Made by a program: the position numbers and the translations under genes. This document shows, piece by piece, positions 4,605 through 52,111 of a stretch of DNA of 64,000 bases (positions within the stretch are counted from its first letter, which is position 1; each line of letters begins with the position of its first letter). This DNA comes from a virus. The stretch is taken from positions 271,553 through 335,552 of IMG/VR virus record IMGVR_UViG_3300031957_002643; one strand, 5' to 3'. A model generated the notes under the pieces. That model saw nothing but the letters and a program-made list of their open reading frames with translations. It was not told where the DNA came from and searched no databases.

Positions 4605-4976
4605 TTAGATAAGCATTTTCAGGTTGCTTAGTGTTTCTTCACGGTCTGCCGGATCAATCGGACCAATTCCCAGACAGGTCACAGTCGGTTCATTGAATAC
4701 AGTACGACCAGCATCTTTTACCAAAGATACACCACATTTCTTTTTGTAAAGATCAAATAACTCGAACAATTCTTTTGTGGTTTCAACTGCGAGTGTGATT
4801 TTCACTGCGGACTGGCTGTCCTTATATTGGGTTGCAAGTTCCGGTGTTCGTTCCAAAGCATCCCAATAAGCATGTAGGTAGGCATGCCCGGCTTGTGCGG
4901 CCAGTTTACCTCTGTTGCCGTTCATGGCCTTCAGTGCTTCTTTACTGACGACACAATAGATTTTCAATTCACTCAT
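4605..4976 (-). CDS. Pth2-family peptidyl-tRNA hydrolase
   Basis: 123 residues from ATG 4976 (GAGGAG seven to twelve bases upstream); the frame stays open to 5021 but lacks a site there. Pth2 hallmarks: N-terminal hydrophobic strand KIYCVVSKEALKAMN, the signature GNRGKLAAQAGHAYLHAY (residues ~20-37), a Lys-rich middle, CGVSLVKDAGRTVFNEPTVTCLGIGP at the end containing the conserved TVTCLGIGP strand. Pth2 enzymes cleave the ester between peptide and tRNA, recycling tRNAs from stalled ribosomes; they are typical of archaea and eukaryotes and occur in some phages. Same strand as and just downstream of the Ro60 gene (50 bases), so probably one RNA-maintenance operon. Confidence 0.8.
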   Translation of the reverse strand: MSELKIYCVVSKEALKAMNGNRGKLAAQAGHAYLHAYWDALERTPELATQYKDSQSAVKITLAVETTKELFELFDLYKKKCGVSLVKDAGRTVFNEPTVTCLGIGPIDPADREETLSNLKMLI

Positions 4977-5026: not shown

Positions 5027-6643
5027 TTAGCGAACAAAGTCCGCCATAACGTTTGGTGCATTGGAATCAAATCCAACAACGTCGAGCATGCCCGGATCAT
5101 CAGGATTTGCAATCGTGAAGCCCGTTGAGGTCATGCCAACAACGATGAGCTTCGCATCGATGCCCATCTTGCGACGGTAATCACGAAGCGCTTCGTGTGG
5201 ATGGATATTACCTGCCCAAGTTTCATTATCCGTGTAGATAACGAAAGCATCAGCTTCGATCTTGTTTTCCATTGCGTAAAGCATTGGAGCAGCACAATCA
5301 GTTCCACCGAATGGAAGATTGCTGATCTTACGGATAACACCATCAAGTGTTGATGCACGACCAAAGTCAAGCGGAGTTACCGCATTAGAGCCACGGTAAG
5401 ACGAATAACGCGAACCACTGGTAAAACCGACAGTGTGTGTAACTGGTTCGGTCTTCATAGTGATAAGTGCCATTGCCGCAGATGCGTCACGTGGCGTGAT
5501 GTTTGAATTCATGATGTTCGAAAACGTCATAGAACCTGAAACATCAAGCGCAAGAAGATGACGCTTTCCAGTCGGAACAACATTCTTGAAAGAAAGCTTG
5601 AATGCATCTTCAAGTGCAGACACAATGTTTCCATTGACCTTCCACGTGTTGCTTCCACGGAAACCACGACCAGACTTATACGTTGTGAGTGCAAGAAGCA
5701 CCGCAAACGGATGAATCATCGAATCGTGAAGCGTCTTCTGATCCGTGAGCCGACGAACTGCCTCCTGTTCAAACTTGGACATCGGCTTGAAAAGATTAAT
5801 CTTTTCAGAAGACATGTTGCCAAGATTTTTGATCATAGCAGTCATCGGCATCTTTTCGAAAAGTGCTTCCCATACCTTTGGATCATTAAGAGCCTCGGTC
5901 GGAAGTGCTTCACGTGGAAGATTTGCTTCACGGATAAGGCCCGGAAGTTCCTTCACAGATGCAGTCTTTGCTTCTTCGTATGCCTTGATGATTGGCGGAA
6001 GCGTTTCGGTATCAACCGGGCGACCACAAATCCAATCAAAGATCACGCGACGTTCTGCTTCTGGCGTCTTTGGATGAGAAAGACGAAGAAGGTCACGGTG
6101 CGTCCAACCATCACGTTGACGATACTTGACCGCTTGGTAAGCGACCTTGTTTGCATCAACTTCGGTATACCAGTTCGCAACTGCACGCTTAAGCGCACGT
6201 CCCCAACCACGGAACTGTTCGACAAATTCCGCGTAATGGAAAAGATGCGTACCAATGCGTGCAACCTTTGGAAGTGCCGCGAGCGCATATGCACGAGTCT
6301 TGTCATCTTGTGCAGCCGAAGCCATAGCAAGAGCGAAAAGAGCAGCATCATTACGGTATGCACGACCGTTCGTGGACACGTCAACAATCATATCGACAGC
6401 ACGAATACCGTCAGAATCAATTGCCTTCTGTACTGCCGAAGCGTTAGCTACGGTAAGTTCACGAGACGATGCGTAGTAGGTTGGTGCATCAGAACCGAGC
6501 ACAAGGAAGCGCTCAAGGCGACCGAACTCATCAAGTGTGAATGAGAAACCGCCAGCATTGTTCTTGGATTGCTTTGGGGAAGCCGCTTCATTTTGCGGCG
6601 TAACGCGATTGCGCGTTCCAACATTACGGTAAGCTTTAGACAT
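5027..6643 (-). CDS. rsr: Ro60/Rsr orthologue (TROVE plus von Willebrand A domain ring protein)
   Basis: 538 residues, the same length class as animal Ro60 and Deinococcus Rsr. The first ~330 residues are helical repeats of the TROVE type (REDGW-like RQRDGWTHRDLLRLSHPKT near residue 185; AVLLALTTYKSGRGFRG near 320). The C-terminal ~180 residues are a vWA domain with a MIDAS motif LALDVSGSM (residue ~366) and FVIYTDNETW. Ro60 forms a ring that binds Y RNAs and misfolded structured RNAs, and in Deinococcus it is tethered to PNPase by a Y RNA. AAGGAGAAGG precedes the ATG. Immediately upstream on the same strand lie two permuted tRNA-like RNAs, exactly where bacterial Y RNAs are found. Confidence 0.93.
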   Translation of the reverse strand: MSKAYRNVGTRNRVTPQNEAASPKQSKNNAGGFSFTLDEFGRLERFLVLGSDAPTYYASSRELTVANASAVQKAIDSDGIRAVDMIVDVSTNGRAYRNDAALFALAMASAAQDDKTRAYALAALPKVARIGTHLFHYAEFVEQFRGWGRALKRAVANWYTEVDANKVAYQAVKYRQRDGWTHRDLLRLSHPKTPEAERRVIFDWICGRPVDTETLPPIIKAYEEAKTASVKELPGLIREANLPREALPTEALNDPKVWEALFEKMPMTAMIKNLGNMSSEKINLFKPMSKFEQEAVRRLTDQKTLHDSMIHPFAVLLALTTYKSGRGFRGSNTWKVNGNIVSALEDAFKLSFKNVVPTGKRHLLALDVSGSMTFSNIMNSNITPRDASAAMALITMKTEPVTHTVGFTSGSRYSSYRGSNAVTPLDFGRASTLDGVIRKISNLPFGGTDCAAPMLYAMENKIEADAFVIYTDNETWAGNIHPHEALRDYRRKMGIDAKLIVVGMTSTGFTIANPDDPGMLDVVGFDSNAPNVMADFVR

Positions 6644-10325: not shown

Positions 10326-10381
10326 TATGCATAACGAAGCACCGCCGAAGGTGCATTGACGATAGTAGCGTGGAGTATGCT

Positions 10382-11515
10382 ATGCCTGTGAATGGAAAAC
10401 CATCCATCCGTGATGGGTTCGTGAAAACGAATACACTCGGATATGAAGAAGAATACGATTACCTCGTATTCATTGGAAGATTTCAACCTCTCCATTACGG
10501 GCATATGCGTGTCATTGACATTGCGCTACAACTCTCCAAAAAAGTAGTTCTGCTCGTTGGTTCGTCCAATGTTGGTCGCACCCTGCGTAACCCGTTCACT
10601 TTTCAAGAACGTTACGCCATGATCGCAACACAATACGATCATGCCATCAAGGATGGTCGTCTCATCATCGACTCAATCGATGATATGATGTATGAAGATG
10701 ACCGCTGGATCGAGCAGGTTCAGACCAAAGTCAACAGCAAAGTTGGCGATACCAAAAATGTCGGTCTGATTGGATGTGAGAAAGATCACACCAGTTATTA
10801 TCTCAGCCTCTTCCCGAACTGGCATAATGTCGGTGTGGAATTCAAGGTTCCACTCAACAGTACCGATATCCGCAAGGCTGTGTTCCTTCAGGACAAGCTC
10901 TGGGATGATCGTGGTTTTGGTGAAACGCAACATGCCAAGAATGAATTCTACAAATTCTTGGACAAGGCGTGCCCGCCAGAAATCGCTCAAATCCTTCACG
11001 CATTTATGTACAATCCAACAGCAGAAGAAATTCGTGAAGAATGGAAGTGGATCAATGAATATCGTGCAAAGCGCCAGACCAGCAATTATCCGGTGATTGA
11101 TATCACTGTTGATGCCTGCGTGGTTCAATCTGGTCATGTTCTGGTTGTTCGCCGCAAGAATTATCCGGGCAAAGGTCTTCTTGCCCTTCCGGGTGGTTTC
11201 TTGAATGAAAACGAAATTCGCGAGAAGGGCATGCTTCGTGAATTGCGAGAAGAAACTTGCATCGATCTCTCGGATACTGTCCTTCGCGCAAATATCGTGA
11301 AAGAAAAAGTTTTCGAAGACCCACACCGTTCAGATCGTGGTCGTCTGATTACGACTGCATATCTGATCAAACTTCAGGATCGCCCGGAACTTCCCAAGGT
11401 GAAGGGTGCTGATGATGCAGAGAAAGCATTCTGGTTGCCATTGTCCGAAGTAAAACCTTCGATCTTCTTTGAAGACCATGGATTCATTATCCGAAATCTC
11501 ACGAGCGGAATCTAA
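10382..11515 (+). CDS. nadM: Bifunctional NMN adenylyltransferase / Nudix hydrolase
   Basis: 377 residues from ATG 10382 (GGAG six bases upstream; GTG 10370 is an alternative). Residues 28-190 are a nucleotidyltransferase with GRFQPLHYGH (32-41) and late NSTDIRKAVF, the ISSTxxR-type ATP-binding motif. Residues ~230-365 are a Nudix domain with box GGFLNENEIREKG..RELREET. The same fusion (slr0787-type, phage NatV) makes NAD+ from NMN and ATP and hydrolyses ADP-ribose. With the nicotinamide phosphoribosyltransferase 570 bases downstream it forms a complete two-step route from nicotinamide to NAD+, the gene pair described for phage NARP2-type NAD restoration. Confidence 0.93.
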   Translation: MPVNGKPSIRDGFVKTNTLGYEEEYDYLVFIGRFQPLHYGHMRVIDIALQLSKKVVLLVGSSNVGRTLRNPFTFQERYAMIATQYDHAIKDGRLIIDSIDDMMYEDDRWIEQVQTKVNSKVGDTKNVGLIGCEKDHTSYYLSLFPNWHNVGVEFKVPLNSTDIRKAVFLQDKLWDDRGFGETQHAKNEFYKFLDKACPPEIAQILHAFMYNPTAEEIREEWKWINEYRAKRQTSNYPVIDITVDACVVQSGHVLVVRRKNYPGKGLLALPGGFLNENEIREKGMLRELREETCIDLSDTVLRANIVKEKVFEDPHRSDRGRLITTAYLIKLQDRPELPKVKGADDAEKAFWLPLSEVKPSIFFEDHGFIIRNLTSGI

Positions 11516-12087: not shown

Positions 12088-13542
12088 ATGCTTAATAATC
12101 CTATTATCGAACTCATTCTCGCAAACAAAGTCATTTCAACGGACAGCTACAAGTTCTCTCACTGGACTCAGTATCCGCCGAATACGACACATGTTTCGAG
12201 CTACATCGAATCCCGTGGTCTTTCCAGTGAAGTGAAAGATGATTGGGAAGATGAAGTCGTTTTCTTCGGCCTGCAAGGCTTCATCAAACGTTACCTCATG
12301 ACGCCGATCACCATGAAGATGGTCGATGAAGCCGAAGAATACTGCAAGGCGCATGGTGAACCATTCAACCGTGCTGGTTTCGAAATCATCGTGAATGAAT
12401 ATGATGGCTTCTATCCTGTTGAAATTGAAGCGGTTCCAGAAGGAACTGTTATGCGTTCTCACAACGCACAGGTTCAAGTCGTCAATACGGATGAACGTCT
12501 GTTTTGGGTGACTTCATTCCTCGAAACGTCTCTTCTCCGTGCAGTGTGGTATCCTTCTACGGTTGCTACTCAAAGCCGCGAAATCAAAAAAGTCATTGCA
12601 TCCTACATGGATGAAACGGCTGGACATCGTGAAGGTCTCGATTTTAAACTCCATGACTTTGGTGCTCGCGGTGTAAGCAGTGCAGAATCCGCTATGATCG
12701 GTGGTTCCTCCCATCTGGTCAATTTCATGGGGACTGATACTGGTGAAGCAAATCTCTGGCTTCGTGCTCTCTATGGTGAAGACATGGCAGCATTCTCTGT
12801 GCCTGCCAGTGAACACAGCACCATGACGAGTTGGGGTGGTCCTGCTGGCGAGGTGGATGCATGTCGCAACATGTTGGAAACCTTTGCTGGTCGCTTCCCG
12901 ATCATCTCTGTGGTTTCTGACAGCTATGACATTTATCGTTGCATCACTGACATTTGGGGTGGTGAACTGTACGAAGATGTCAAGGCGCTTGAAAAGGTCG
13001 GAAGCAAACTTGTTGTTCGTCCTGACTCGGGTGACCCGACGACTGTTCCTGTTGAATGCATCAAGCTTCTGATGGAAAAGTTCGGGTACACCACGAATGA
13101 ACGTGGTTACAAGGTTCTTCCTCCGTTCGTCGGTGTTCTTCAAGGTGATGGTATCAACATCCGTTCGATCCGCCAAATCCTTGAAAACATGAAGAAAGAA
13201 GGCCTGTCCGCCGAAAACATCGTGTTCGGTATGGGTGGTGCCCTTCTTCAAAAGGTTGACCGTGATACCTTGAAGTATGCGATGAAGGCATCTGCTCGAA
13301 AGACTGATGGTGAATGGCATGATGTCTTCAAGCAGCCGGTCACGGATAAGGGCAAGATGTCCAAGAAAGGCCGTCTGGTTGTTGTTGAAACTTTGGGTGT
13401 TGGTGCTCGTGGTCATCTGACTGTTCGTGCCGATGCCATGCTTTCGACCGACAAGAACTTGCTTCGCCCGGTCTATCGTAATGGGGAACTTCTCATGGAT
13501 GATAGCTTGACGGATATCCGCAAACGCGCTAGTATCCGTTAG
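12088..13542 (+). CDS. nampt: Nicotinamide phosphoribosyltransferase
   Basis: 484 residues, the length of animal and phage NAMPT (KVP40 NadV type). Conserved elements: STDSYKFSHWTQYP (18-31), HDFGARGVSSAESA (189-202), SVPASEHSTMTSWGG (237-251) with the phosphorylated His243, VVSDSYDIYRCITDIWG, and LVVRPDSGDP binding PRPP. It converts nicotinamide and PRPP to NMN, feeding the NMN adenylyltransferase encoded in the same operon. Last gene before a strong terminator. Confidence 0.97.
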   Translation: MLNNPIIELILANKVISTDSYKFSHWTQYPPNTTHVSSYIESRGLSSEVKDDWEDEVVFFGLQGFIKRYLMTPITMKMVDEAEEYCKAHGEPFNRAGFEIIVNEYDGFYPVEIEAVPEGTVMRSHNAQVQVVNTDERLFWVTSFLETSLLRAVWYPSTVATQSREIKKVIASYMDETAGHREGLDFKLHDFGARGVSSAESAMIGGSSHLVNFMGTDTGEANLWLRALYGEDMAAFSVPASEHSTMTSWGGPAGEVDACRNMLETFAGRFPIISVVSDSYDIYRCITDIWGGELYEDVKALEKVGSKLVVRPDSGDPTTVPVECIKLLMEKFGYTTNERGYKVLPPFVGVLQGDGINIRSIRQILENMKKEGLSAENIVFGMGGALLQKVDRDTLKYAMKASARKTDGEWHDVFKQPVTDKGKMSKKGRLVVVETLGVGARGHLTVRADAMLSTDKNLLRPVYRNGELLMDDSLTDIRKRASIR

Positions 13543-49918: not shown

Positions 49919-50307
49919 TGTTTATCGTATGTTATGATCCAGAAACAAATATGCCTCTGTTCACTGCCGAACAGAATAAAAATGTGACTCTAGAGTTCTT
50001 CGAAAGCACCGGAGCAACTTGTTTCCTATCCGAGATTGGAGACATTCATGGGAAATACGTAGAAAATGAAACACTGATGGACATACAAGATATTGAAATC
50101 AATAGCAATTTTTCATGTTCTGTAAGCGAAGAATTGGTTATATCCGAAATTCCAAATCCAACTACAGTTTTTGTTGATGGTTCTGAGATCGGAATTGTCA
50201 CTGATGGCACTTTAGAATTTCAAAGTTCAGAACCGGGAATCTATCAAGTCAGATTGGTTAGCAAACCAAAGTATCACGAAAAAACAATAGAGATTGAAGT
50301 ATCATGA
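49918..50307 (+). CDS. Unknown small protein of the fibre operon (129 aa)
   Basis: Starts on the stop of protein C. Beta-rich, with PNPTTVFVDGSEIGIVTDGTL and a YQVRLV strand near the end, resembling a small Ig-like bundle. Likely fibre accessory protein. Overlaps the next gene by four bases. Confidence 0.6.
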   Translation: MFIVCYDPETNMPLFTAEQNKNVTLEFFESTGATCFLSEIGDIHGKYVENETLMDIQDIEINSNFSCSVSEELVISEIPNPTTVFVDGSEIGIVTDGTLEFQSSEPGIYQVRLVSKPKYHEKTIEIEVS

Positions 50308-50690
50308 AGATTAATGTTTCGAAGAATTATAATTACGATGAATTGCGCAAAAGTGCAAAACAAACCATTGATATGATGGCTGAACAATTCAGAGCACAAA
50401 ATGTAGGTGTGTCTGCTGCACAAACGGTGGTATATCAATCCAAATTGGAAGAAGCAAAAAGAGTTTTGGCGGGTGATGATACTGATTGTCCCCTTTTGTC
50501 TGTTGAAGTAGGCATTACAGCACCAACACTTGAAAAGGTTGCTGATCTTGTAATATTAAAGGACGCAGTATGGAAACGCACCGTTGGTCAAATCGAAACG
50601 GTACGATTGTCACGAAAGCGAATGATTGATGCAGCGCCAGATAATGTGTTTGAAATTGAAAAAATCGTAAAAAACACGTCCTTTTCATAA
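50304..50690 (+). CDS. Probable tail-fibre assembly chaperone-like protein (128 aa)
   Basis: Helical. YQSKLEEAKRVLAGDDTDCPLL resembles the helical domain with 'Y..K..EA..(F/V)LA......P.L' at the C-terminus of phage tail-fibre proteins and their chaperones. Last gene of the tail operon, the usual place for a chaperone. Assignment is tentative. Confidence 0.45.
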   Translation: MKINVSKNYNYDELRKSAKQTIDMMAEQFRAQNVGVSAAQTVVYQSKLEEAKRVLAGDDTDCPLLSVEVGITAPTLEKVADLVILKDAVWKRTVGQIETVRLSRKRMIDAAPDNVFEIEKIVKNTSFS

Positions 50691-50727
50691 AAACCGTTTT
50701 ATTTTCAGAAAAACGATCACATAGCGG

Positions 50728-50755
50728 TTGACTGTCAGAAAAAATGTTATATATT
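50728..50755 (+). promoter_or_regulatory. Promoter for the 250-nt RNA
   Basis: TTGACT 50728-50733, spacer 16, TATATT 50750-50755. Confidence 0.7.
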
Positions 50756-50760
50756 GGTTC

Positions 50761-51006
50761 TTGTCGCTGCTGATCACAGCGACGGGGACTGCTCCGAATA
50801 ACAACCTTGTCAGCGGTTGTAAGGAGGCTGTCACGTAGGGCACTGGCTCTACCACCAAGCGTCCAAAAGCTGGATGGAGGTGCTGCTTAAAGGCAGGAAT
50901 CAGGCTTGACCGAATTTGCTAAGGAAGCTGAGATAGGTCATTGAGAGTATCATCCAAGTCTCTCGTCCCACTATGAAGCCCTCCGGTTAATCGCCGGGGG
51001 GCTTCA
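50761..51006 (+). ncRNA. Structured noncoding RNA of about 250 nt
   Basis: Between its own promoter and a 12-bp terminal hairpin (50975-50986/50994-51005). Starts with GTCGCTG/CAGCGAC (50763-50769/50777-50783), then ACAACC/GGTTGT (~50800-50820), GTAGGG/CTCTAC (~50837-50854), a TCCA/TGGA loop (~50865-50877) and GAGAG/CTCTC (~50943-50964). No reading frame. Not recognised as 6S, tmRNA, RNase P or SRP RNA. Confidence 0.65.
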
Positions 51007-51017
51007 CCAGTTTTAGC

Positions 51018-51046
51018 TTGACAAACATTTCTCCACCGTATATGGT
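51018..51046 (+). promoter_or_regulatory. Promoter for the 51075-51452 gene
   Basis: TTGACA 51018-51023, spacer 17, TATGGT 51041-51046. Confidence 0.7.
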
Positions 51047-51074
51047 ACAGTTGAACATTAAGGGAGAGAACATA

Positions 51075-51452
51075 ATGTTTGGTATTGAAAACATGATTGA
51101 CCAGCTCACGGAACAATTCGAAGCGGTTTCTGCACAACTGGAAGATGGCTATGTTCCGGCGAATATTCTCGTTCGTGAGCAGATTCGCGACCATCTGAAT
51201 GGGTCGGATTTGTCTCTGTTTACCTATACCGGGGTTGCAGACGAATTCGTCATTCTGGCAGACATTGAAGTCTCCGATGAAATCTACAACGAATATCCCG
51301 AAAAGGTAGCCCGACTGGCTGAACTTTACGCAAAGACGGTCGTCACAACCATTAAGACGTTCAAGGAACGTTTTGGTGCAGGACTCACCGGCGCAGATTT
51401 TCAACTCATTGTGCGTATGGTTGCCGACAAGGCTTCATTGAAGCTCGGTTGA
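51075..51452 (+). CDS. Unknown acidic protein (125 aa)
   Basis: AAGGGAGAGAACATA before ATG 51075; the open stretch to 51018 overlaps the promoter. Helical, acidic, with LTEQFEAVSAQLEDGYVP and a C-terminal helix FQLIVRMVADKASLKLG. Monocistronic: own promoter and strong terminator. Function unknown. Confidence 0.65.
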   Translation: MFGIENMIDQLTEQFEAVSAQLEDGYVPANILVREQIRDHLNGSDLSLFTYTGVADEFVILADIEVSDEIYNEYPEKVARLAELYAKTVVTTIKTFKERFGAGLTGADFQLIVRMVADKASLKLG

Positions 51453-51493
51453 CCTATAAGTAACAGTGACCCTTCGTTGGTCATTTCTTTGGA

Positions 51494-51527
51494 AAACAGC
51501 GGCATCGAGAATGCCGCTGTTTTTTTT
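51494..51527 (+). terminator. Strong intrinsic terminator
   Basis: AAACAGCGGCAT/ATGCCGCTGTTT, 12 bp, 5-base loop, then seven T. Confidence 0.93.
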
Positions 51528-51547
51528 ACGATTAAAATTTTTTCTTG

Positions 51548-51576
51548 TTGACAATGCTTTCGATTTGTCCTATAAG
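51548..51576 (+). promoter_or_regulatory. Promoter for the Pro/Gln tRNA cluster
   Basis: TTGACA 51548-51553, spacer 17, TATAAG 51571-51576. A 16-codon frame at 51584 follows without a ribosome site. Confidence 0.85.
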
Positions 51577-51685
51577 TATATTCATGATCAACATGTGGAA
51601 CATCTTCCAGCAATTCGCACCACAACCCGCTTAAGCGCGGGAACAGATCACTTTTACCTAAAATTCGAATAACGTTTGTGACTAG

Positions 51686-51762
51686 CTAGGCGTAGCTCAG
51701 TCAGGCAGAGTACCGGTTTTGGAAACCGGGGGTCGTTGGTTCAAATCCAACCGTCTAGACCA
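51686..51762 (+). tRNA. tRNA-Pro (anticodon TGG)
   Basis: Acceptor CTAGGCG/CGTCTAG, D arm GCTCAGTCAGGCAGAG, anticodon stem CCGGT/ACCGG around TTTGGAA, T arm GTTGG-TTCAAAT-CCAAC, A, CCA. Confidence 0.94.
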
Positions 51763-51778
51763 AACGTTCTAAAACCAT

Positions 51779-51852
51779 CAGGGTATAGCTTAGTGGTAGA
51801 GTATCGCACTCGGAATGCGAGGGCGAAGGTTCGATTCCTTCTACCCTGACCA
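51779..51852 (+). tRNA. tRNA-Pro (anticodon CGG)
   Basis: Acceptor CAGGGTA/TACCCTG, anticodon stem TCGCA/TGCGA around CTCGGAA, T arm GAAGG-TTCGATT-CCTTC, A, CCA. Confidence 0.92.
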
Positions 51853-51886
51853 AAAATAGAGGTAAAGATGAATAACGGTGGTTAAC

Positions 51887-52111
51887 ATGATCGATATCAA
51901 AAGAGCCGTCTCGAACGAGAATACAGTTGAATTCCAATACTACTTTGATGGTAGTCTTTGGTACAAAGAAATCAGTGGTGTAGTTTTTCCTGTCCCGGTA
52001 GAGGATATTGGAACAGCGACATTTAATAGAACAGAGAAAGCACTTCTCATGATGCGTTACATGCGGAAGTATAACAAAATGAAAGAGGAAAGTATGAATA
52101 CTGGTGCTTGA
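51887..52111 (+). CDS. Unknown small protein between tRNAs (74 aa)
   Basis: ATG 51887 (GGTGG upstream); GTG 51878 is possible. Basic C-terminus (MMRYMRKYNKMKEESM), beta segment VEFQYYFDGSLWYKE. Embedded between tRNA-Pro and tRNA-Gln, so co-transcribed with them. No family recognised. Confidence 0.5.
   Translation: MIDIKRAVSNENTVEFQYYFDGSLWYKEISGVVFPVPVEDIGTATFNRTEKALLMMRYMRKYNKMKEESMNTGA

Follow-up and report, generated by a model that had tools for sequence, protein, structure and literature searches.

The 64,000-nucleotide window analyzed here, meaning the whole stretch G000:C1:271553-335552 of a 335,552-base virus record, carries a predicted non-coding transcript of ~245 nt at 50762-51006 on the plus strand, delimited by promoter position, homology, and a 3' hairpin. 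It is very probably a manA-type RNA (RF01745), and with reasonable confidence we read it as a manA-family RNA that has diverged, stands alone, is carried by a T4-like jumbo phage, and probably acts in trans. The RNA class is already known, and the window RNA is, judged from its sequence, a divergent relative of manA. A RIIA-like protein, a T4-type hypothetical protein, and ten tRNAs are encoded in the window, making a T4-like jumbo phage a fair inference for the carrier; four tRNAs are located 0.7-1.3 kb downstream of the RNA. Elsewhere in the window, at 12088-13542 and 10370-11515, are ORFs for proteins that by eye resemble nicotinamide phosphoribosyltransferase and an NMN adenylyltransferase/Nudix fusion.

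The initial annotation had described an RNA with its own promoter, evident stems, a 12-bp terminal hairpin, and no reading frame, and these features are all recovered here with minor adjustment. A sigma70-type promoter, TTGACT-16-TATATT, was found by sequence scan at 50728-50755 (+). A local promoter scan returned 6 promoter-like sites against a shuffle mean of 7.3, which is no excess; TTGACN...TATANT, a stricter pattern, has only 10 occurrences in the 335,552-base record (control, 1), one of which is the site at 50728-50755. The distance from the -10 box to the conserved GGG of P1 is 29 nt, within the 20-32 nt seen in relatives. The minimum free energy for 250 nt is -103.7 kcal/mol (z -5.1), with 0 of 200 shuffles equally stable, and folding the sequence by itself brings out P0, P1, P2, P2b, and P5, which are helices of the family. 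Pair probabilities are 0.85-1.0 for P0, P1, P2b, P5, and the terminal hairpin, whereas those of P2 range from 0.68 to 0.92. The P0 5' hairpin (50764-50782, pairing 50764-50769 with 50777-50782) and the P1 closing helix (50785-50969, GGGAC at 50785-50789 with GUCCC at 50965-50969) are defined by both the RF01745 alignment and the fold. RF01745, the fold, and one of our own covariance models (R2, see below) together define the P2 module (50792-50826), with CUCC (50792-50795) paired to GGAG (50823-50826), an inner helix CAACC/GGUUG, and the conserved core letters GAAUAA and GUAAGG, as well as the P5 3' hairpin GAGAG/CUCUC with its GUA-type loop (50943-50964). The only plus-strand ORFs of at least 20 aa that overlap the RNA are of 36 and 27 aa, both with TTG starts, and on the opposite strand a 161-aa ORF spans the 3' part of the RNA.

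The terminal hairpin is G+C-rich and comprises 13 bp in the fold (50974-50986 with 50994-51006), or 14 bp in the minimum free energy structure. It is likely a terminator or 3'-end element, to judge from the modeled fold. It has a weak, offset U-tract (ACCAGUUUUAG), and neither the terminator scan nor a stricter terminator rule called the hairpin; given the weak U-tract, it may instead be a processing or protection element.

The claim that did not hold is that the RNA belongs to no known small RNA class. In a permissive Rfam scan, RF01745 (manA RNA) matched 50764-50974 (+) over its full length, model positions 1-192, with 48.7 bits and E 1.4e-11, and the closing helix, the core of P2, and the 3' hairpin are all present; this match, the only one to RF01745 in the whole phage record, counts against the novelty of the element but not against its existence. 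The RF01745 gathering score is 55.2 bits, and as the match lies below it, we refer to the window RNA as a manA-type relative rather than a formal member. Such a score is also missed by default Rfam scans, and the gathering-level scan of the window indeed returned only tRNAs. We built two covariance models that exclude the window sequence, R1 from 12 cyanophage-type sequences and R2 from 51 rows. With default filters both missed the window RNA in the 64 kb, R2 giving one 9.7-bit match elsewhere. In runs undertaken after this miss, with filters off and confined to 50000-52000, the top match for both was 50764-50974, at 36.2 bits for R2 (E 1.1e-10; next best, 5.6 bits) and 22.2 bits for R1 (E 1.8e-6; next best, 3.1 bits).

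The window RNA has in common with RF01745 the 5' hairpin, the closing helix, a P2 with GAAUAA/GUAAGG, the 3' hairpin, and the promoter distance. Within the conserved core GUGACUGAAUAA ... GUAAGGU, the letters GAAUAA and GUAAGG are kept, while the flanking letters are altered with re-pairing. It differs from the family in its P2, where CUCC/GGAG forms four pairs instead of three, in a larger P3 region (three hairpins) with a degenerate closing helix containing non-standard pairs, in the 13-bp hairpin and new promoter that follow the RNA, and in a carrier that is not a recognized cyanophage. Close relatives sharing its neighbors were not found by nucleotide, flanking-protein, or P2-pattern searches: the nucleotide search gave no useful match in phages or plasmids, the flanking proteins had no relatives in viral contigs, and the 3 stretches retrieved with a pattern built on the P2 type of the window RNA showed, by eye, no manA core around them. 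Among 94 stretches with the pattern GGGANTGNTCNGAATAA, a manA-core regular expression gave only an unconvincing match.

Covariation, which had been proposed as a check on the RNA, is extensive among relatives. In 51 aligned relatives, the window excluded, 95.4% of cells are paired and 27 of 29 pairs changed on both sides, with 0 of 500 shuffles as good and slid controls all far worse, in an alignment that had been fitted to the tested structure. Alignment A3 contains one short spurious row (L399 190-225). The fifth pair of P1 is C-G in the window and G-C in the family, and this swap, together with the re-pairing of P2, is, as far as sequence can tell, what selection on a structure would leave behind. 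RF01745 was found in 33 of 37 collected records at E <=0.1, 23 of them above the gathering cut-off, figures that are uninformative on frequency since the records were picked by core pattern or nucleotide similarity. Full-length matches below threshold occur in non-cyanophage contigs and in one WOR-3 genome bin. It was absent from four proteobacterial genomes reached through false-positive loci (Vibrio, Mariprofundus, a gammaproteobacterium, and Methylophilaceae), an uninformative result, as control genomes also gave none.

Two of seven T4-like or jumbo phages matched RF01745 at E <=1. The match in SCTP-2 (15.1 bits) does not look real, as the stretch is antisense to a tRNA, and was rejected, whereas that in HTVC008M looks real. 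This Pelagibacter phage carries an unannotated manA-like RNA at 5037-5223 (L530 1501-1687; 25.9 bits) with a TTGACA/TATAAT promoter, and the RNA overlaps an annotated CDS for a 56-aa hypothetical protein. Like the window RNA, it is found in a T4-like phage outside the cyanophages, spans RF01745 in full, and has its promoter upstream; unlike the window RNA, it stands before a gene for an ssDNA-binding protein and lacks a strong terminal hairpin.

Previous work described manA from marine metagenomes, from T4-like cyanophages, and from two gammaproteobacteria, noted that it commonly occupies potential 5' UTRs, and marked it a probable riboswitch (Weinberg 2010, PMC2864571). It is also carried by the estuarine cyanophage S-CREM1, where its regulatory role is described as unverified (PMC9964418). 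The source alignment contains 48 significantly covarying pairs according to Rfam 14 (PMC7779021), and manA serves as an example for CaCoFold (PMC7657543). No riboswitches were detected in a pelagimyophage survey that used a different tool (PMC7029224). CMCompare reports a low-scored link of the manA model to a tRNA-like cloverleaf and quotes the Rfam remark that manA often adjoins tRNAs (PMC3692125), so manA-tRNA adjacency is not new. ROOL RNA (RF03087) resembles the window RNA in being a phage RNA close to tRNAs, and some ROOLs carry GUGACUGAAUAA near their 3' end, where the letters take part in other pairings; we claim no homology, and the RF03087 model gave no match in the window in either gathering-level or permissive scans. 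A separate candidate link to ROOL, through GTGACTGAATAA shared by loci L142, L208, and L216, was rejected as a search-pattern coincidence, the Rfam alignment (L216) pairing these letters differently. A link to raiA was considered from published structure descriptions, as given in two papers (PMC12286853, PMC11751092), and none is claimed.

The next gene after the RNA encodes a 125-aa protein lacking a PHROG match (51075-51452, +). It is unlikely, in our estimate, that the window RNA is a true cis-regulator, in which a manA aptamer and a transcription terminator would form a riboswitch or attenuator before this gene. The order of promoter, structured RNA, hairpin, and ORF is that of a terminator-type riboswitch; Rfam types manA as cis-regulatory, and it has been designated as probably a riboswitch (Weinberg 2010, PMC2864571). 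In many relatives, too, a start codon follows after 15-50 nt and no terminator intervenes, a leader-like arrangement that counts against the stand-alone reading. However, the gene has its own promoter-like site, TTGACA-17-TATGGT (51018-51046, +), past the hairpin. The hairpin lies clear of the core, the 12 hairpin pairs tested have a probability of at least 0.999, and the best complement to its 5' arm inside the RNA, as an antiterminator would need, does not surpass chance expectation (812 of 1000 shuffles). A 48-nt cassette comprising the hairpin and the -35 box (50973-51020) recurs once in the phage at 96% identity (G000:C1:165150-165197, minus strand), where it serves another RNA, and the relatives have 37 unrelated gene families downstream. 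Cis control is improbable here because the hairpin and the gene's own promoter intervene and because the hairpin/-35 cassette serves an unrelated RNA. The window copy thus appears not to fit the Rfam cis-regulatory type (5' UTR), gene 51075 is not thought to be controlled by it, and the layout suggests a free RNA over a cis switch, which also backs the initial annotation in calling the RNA independent.

The surroundings of the second cassette copy deserve separate mention. It follows a 125-nt RNA-like unit unrelated to manA (L532 ~4790..4680, minus strand; L002), which has a promoter-like site and two 12-13-bp hairpins with similar loops, and it precedes a Thg1-like gene (by eye) with its own promoter. 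Also outside the window, at G000:C1:~162899-163311 (L532 2812..2400), both on the minus strand, is an apparently non-coding stretch of ~410 nt, for which no Rfam match was found. It has its own TTGACT...TATATT promoter, contains a pair of similar GAAAGAAAGGYAGGAACCCAAATTG domains, and ends in a terminator with a U-tail.

The layout among relatives, gathered via core patterns and nucleotide similarity, bears on the same question. The upstream and downstream surveys started from 130 loci, of which 128 gave cores and 116 the 3' strand, and the contigs behind the counts that follow have overlapping origins and are not independent of one another. For 123 cyanophage-type loci with 100 nt upstream, a promoter score of at least 9/12 was found just upstream in 117, versus 73 of 615 random positions, and a score of at least 11/12 in 107, versus 6 of 615. 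Six relatives scored below 9: L338, L237, and L515 sit directly behind a tRNA (ARAGORN), L409 and L461 have upstream letters identical to those of L515, and the upstream region of L462 is tRNA-like by eye, although ARAGORN reported none. Of the 114 loci with 150 nt downstream, 11 have a tRNA no more than 120 nt from manA, L237 and L338 among them being squeezed between two tRNAs, and 9 run downstream into a tRNA within 120 nt. A strict terminator follows in 16 of 114 (controls, 5 of 342), and the word HTAAATA, which we take to be a T4-type late-promoter-like word, in 22 of 114 (controls, 22 of 570). For 112 loci with 300 nt downstream, 106 had an ORF, and these first ORFs fall into 37 clusters, those named being gp32-type ssDNA-binding protein, transaldolase, ThyX (thymidylate synthase), Hsp20, 2OG-Fe(II) oxygenase, and a PurL fragment. 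The commonest first gene is that for the gp32-type ssDNA-binding protein (21 of 106 ORFs, e.g., L470), and it is also found there in HTVC008M (L530).

Two further elements were observed near manA in these contigs. The element GACC-TAAGATGCAAC-hairpin-GGGCAGAT-GGTC, often with a T-run, stands immediately downstream of manA in 27 of 114 cyanophage-type loci (e.g., L454 4054-4081, minus strand; L503 4153-4180, plus strand). Its exact pattern occurs once each in 26 of 534 loci, all chosen for manA, and four such loci scanned gave no Rfam gathering matches for it. In one cyanophage-type contig, matches to the glutamine and glutamine-II riboswitches flank the manA RNA (L479 1194-1242, 1707-1802, and 1748-1803, minus strand).

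Phage ncRNA and tRNA islands undergo gain and loss, and it is conceivable, though quite improbable, that the window RNA is a structural spacer or relic, inherited with such an island and still transcribed but without present function. The divergent RF01745 score and the four tRNAs downstream would fit this, but P1 and P2 are maintained by compensatory changes, the fold is unusually stable at the z-score given above, and the promoter is retained at the family distance. That the RNA is a genuinely new class whose manA score reflects chance or mere module sharing is very improbable, for although the score is under the gathering cut-off and default-filter searches miss the RNA, the E-value of the full-length match, the identical ends in three models, and the conserved core letters all speak against it.

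For the stand-alone manA-family RNA that we favor, the phage would transcribe the RNA from a dedicated promoter of host type (sigma70), with the start at about the P0 hairpin, and the 13-bp hairpin would end or protect the 3' end. Once released, the folded ~245-nt RNA would leave the gene behind it unswitched and would work in trans, its partner being a protein, a component of a ribosome or tRNA, or a second RNA. That it stands alone and acts in trans is a proposal we hold with moderate confidence.

The finding also bears on the family as a whole. manA has been classed as a probable riboswitch since 2010, and no report of a ligand or function was found in the titles and abstract openings of the open-licence literature. 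We suggest only tentatively, with somewhat less than even confidence, that manA is not a riboswitch but a widespread, free-standing, early-transcribed, trans-acting phage RNA, often among tRNA genes, with the window copy among the clearest examples and a family extending well beyond marine cyanophages (a pelagiphage, a jumbo phage, and a WOR-3 bin). The Rfam cut-off conceals divergent manA relatives in large phages, and copies that have their own promoter, lie between tRNAs, or are fenced off from the next gene make the non-riboswitch model directly testable.
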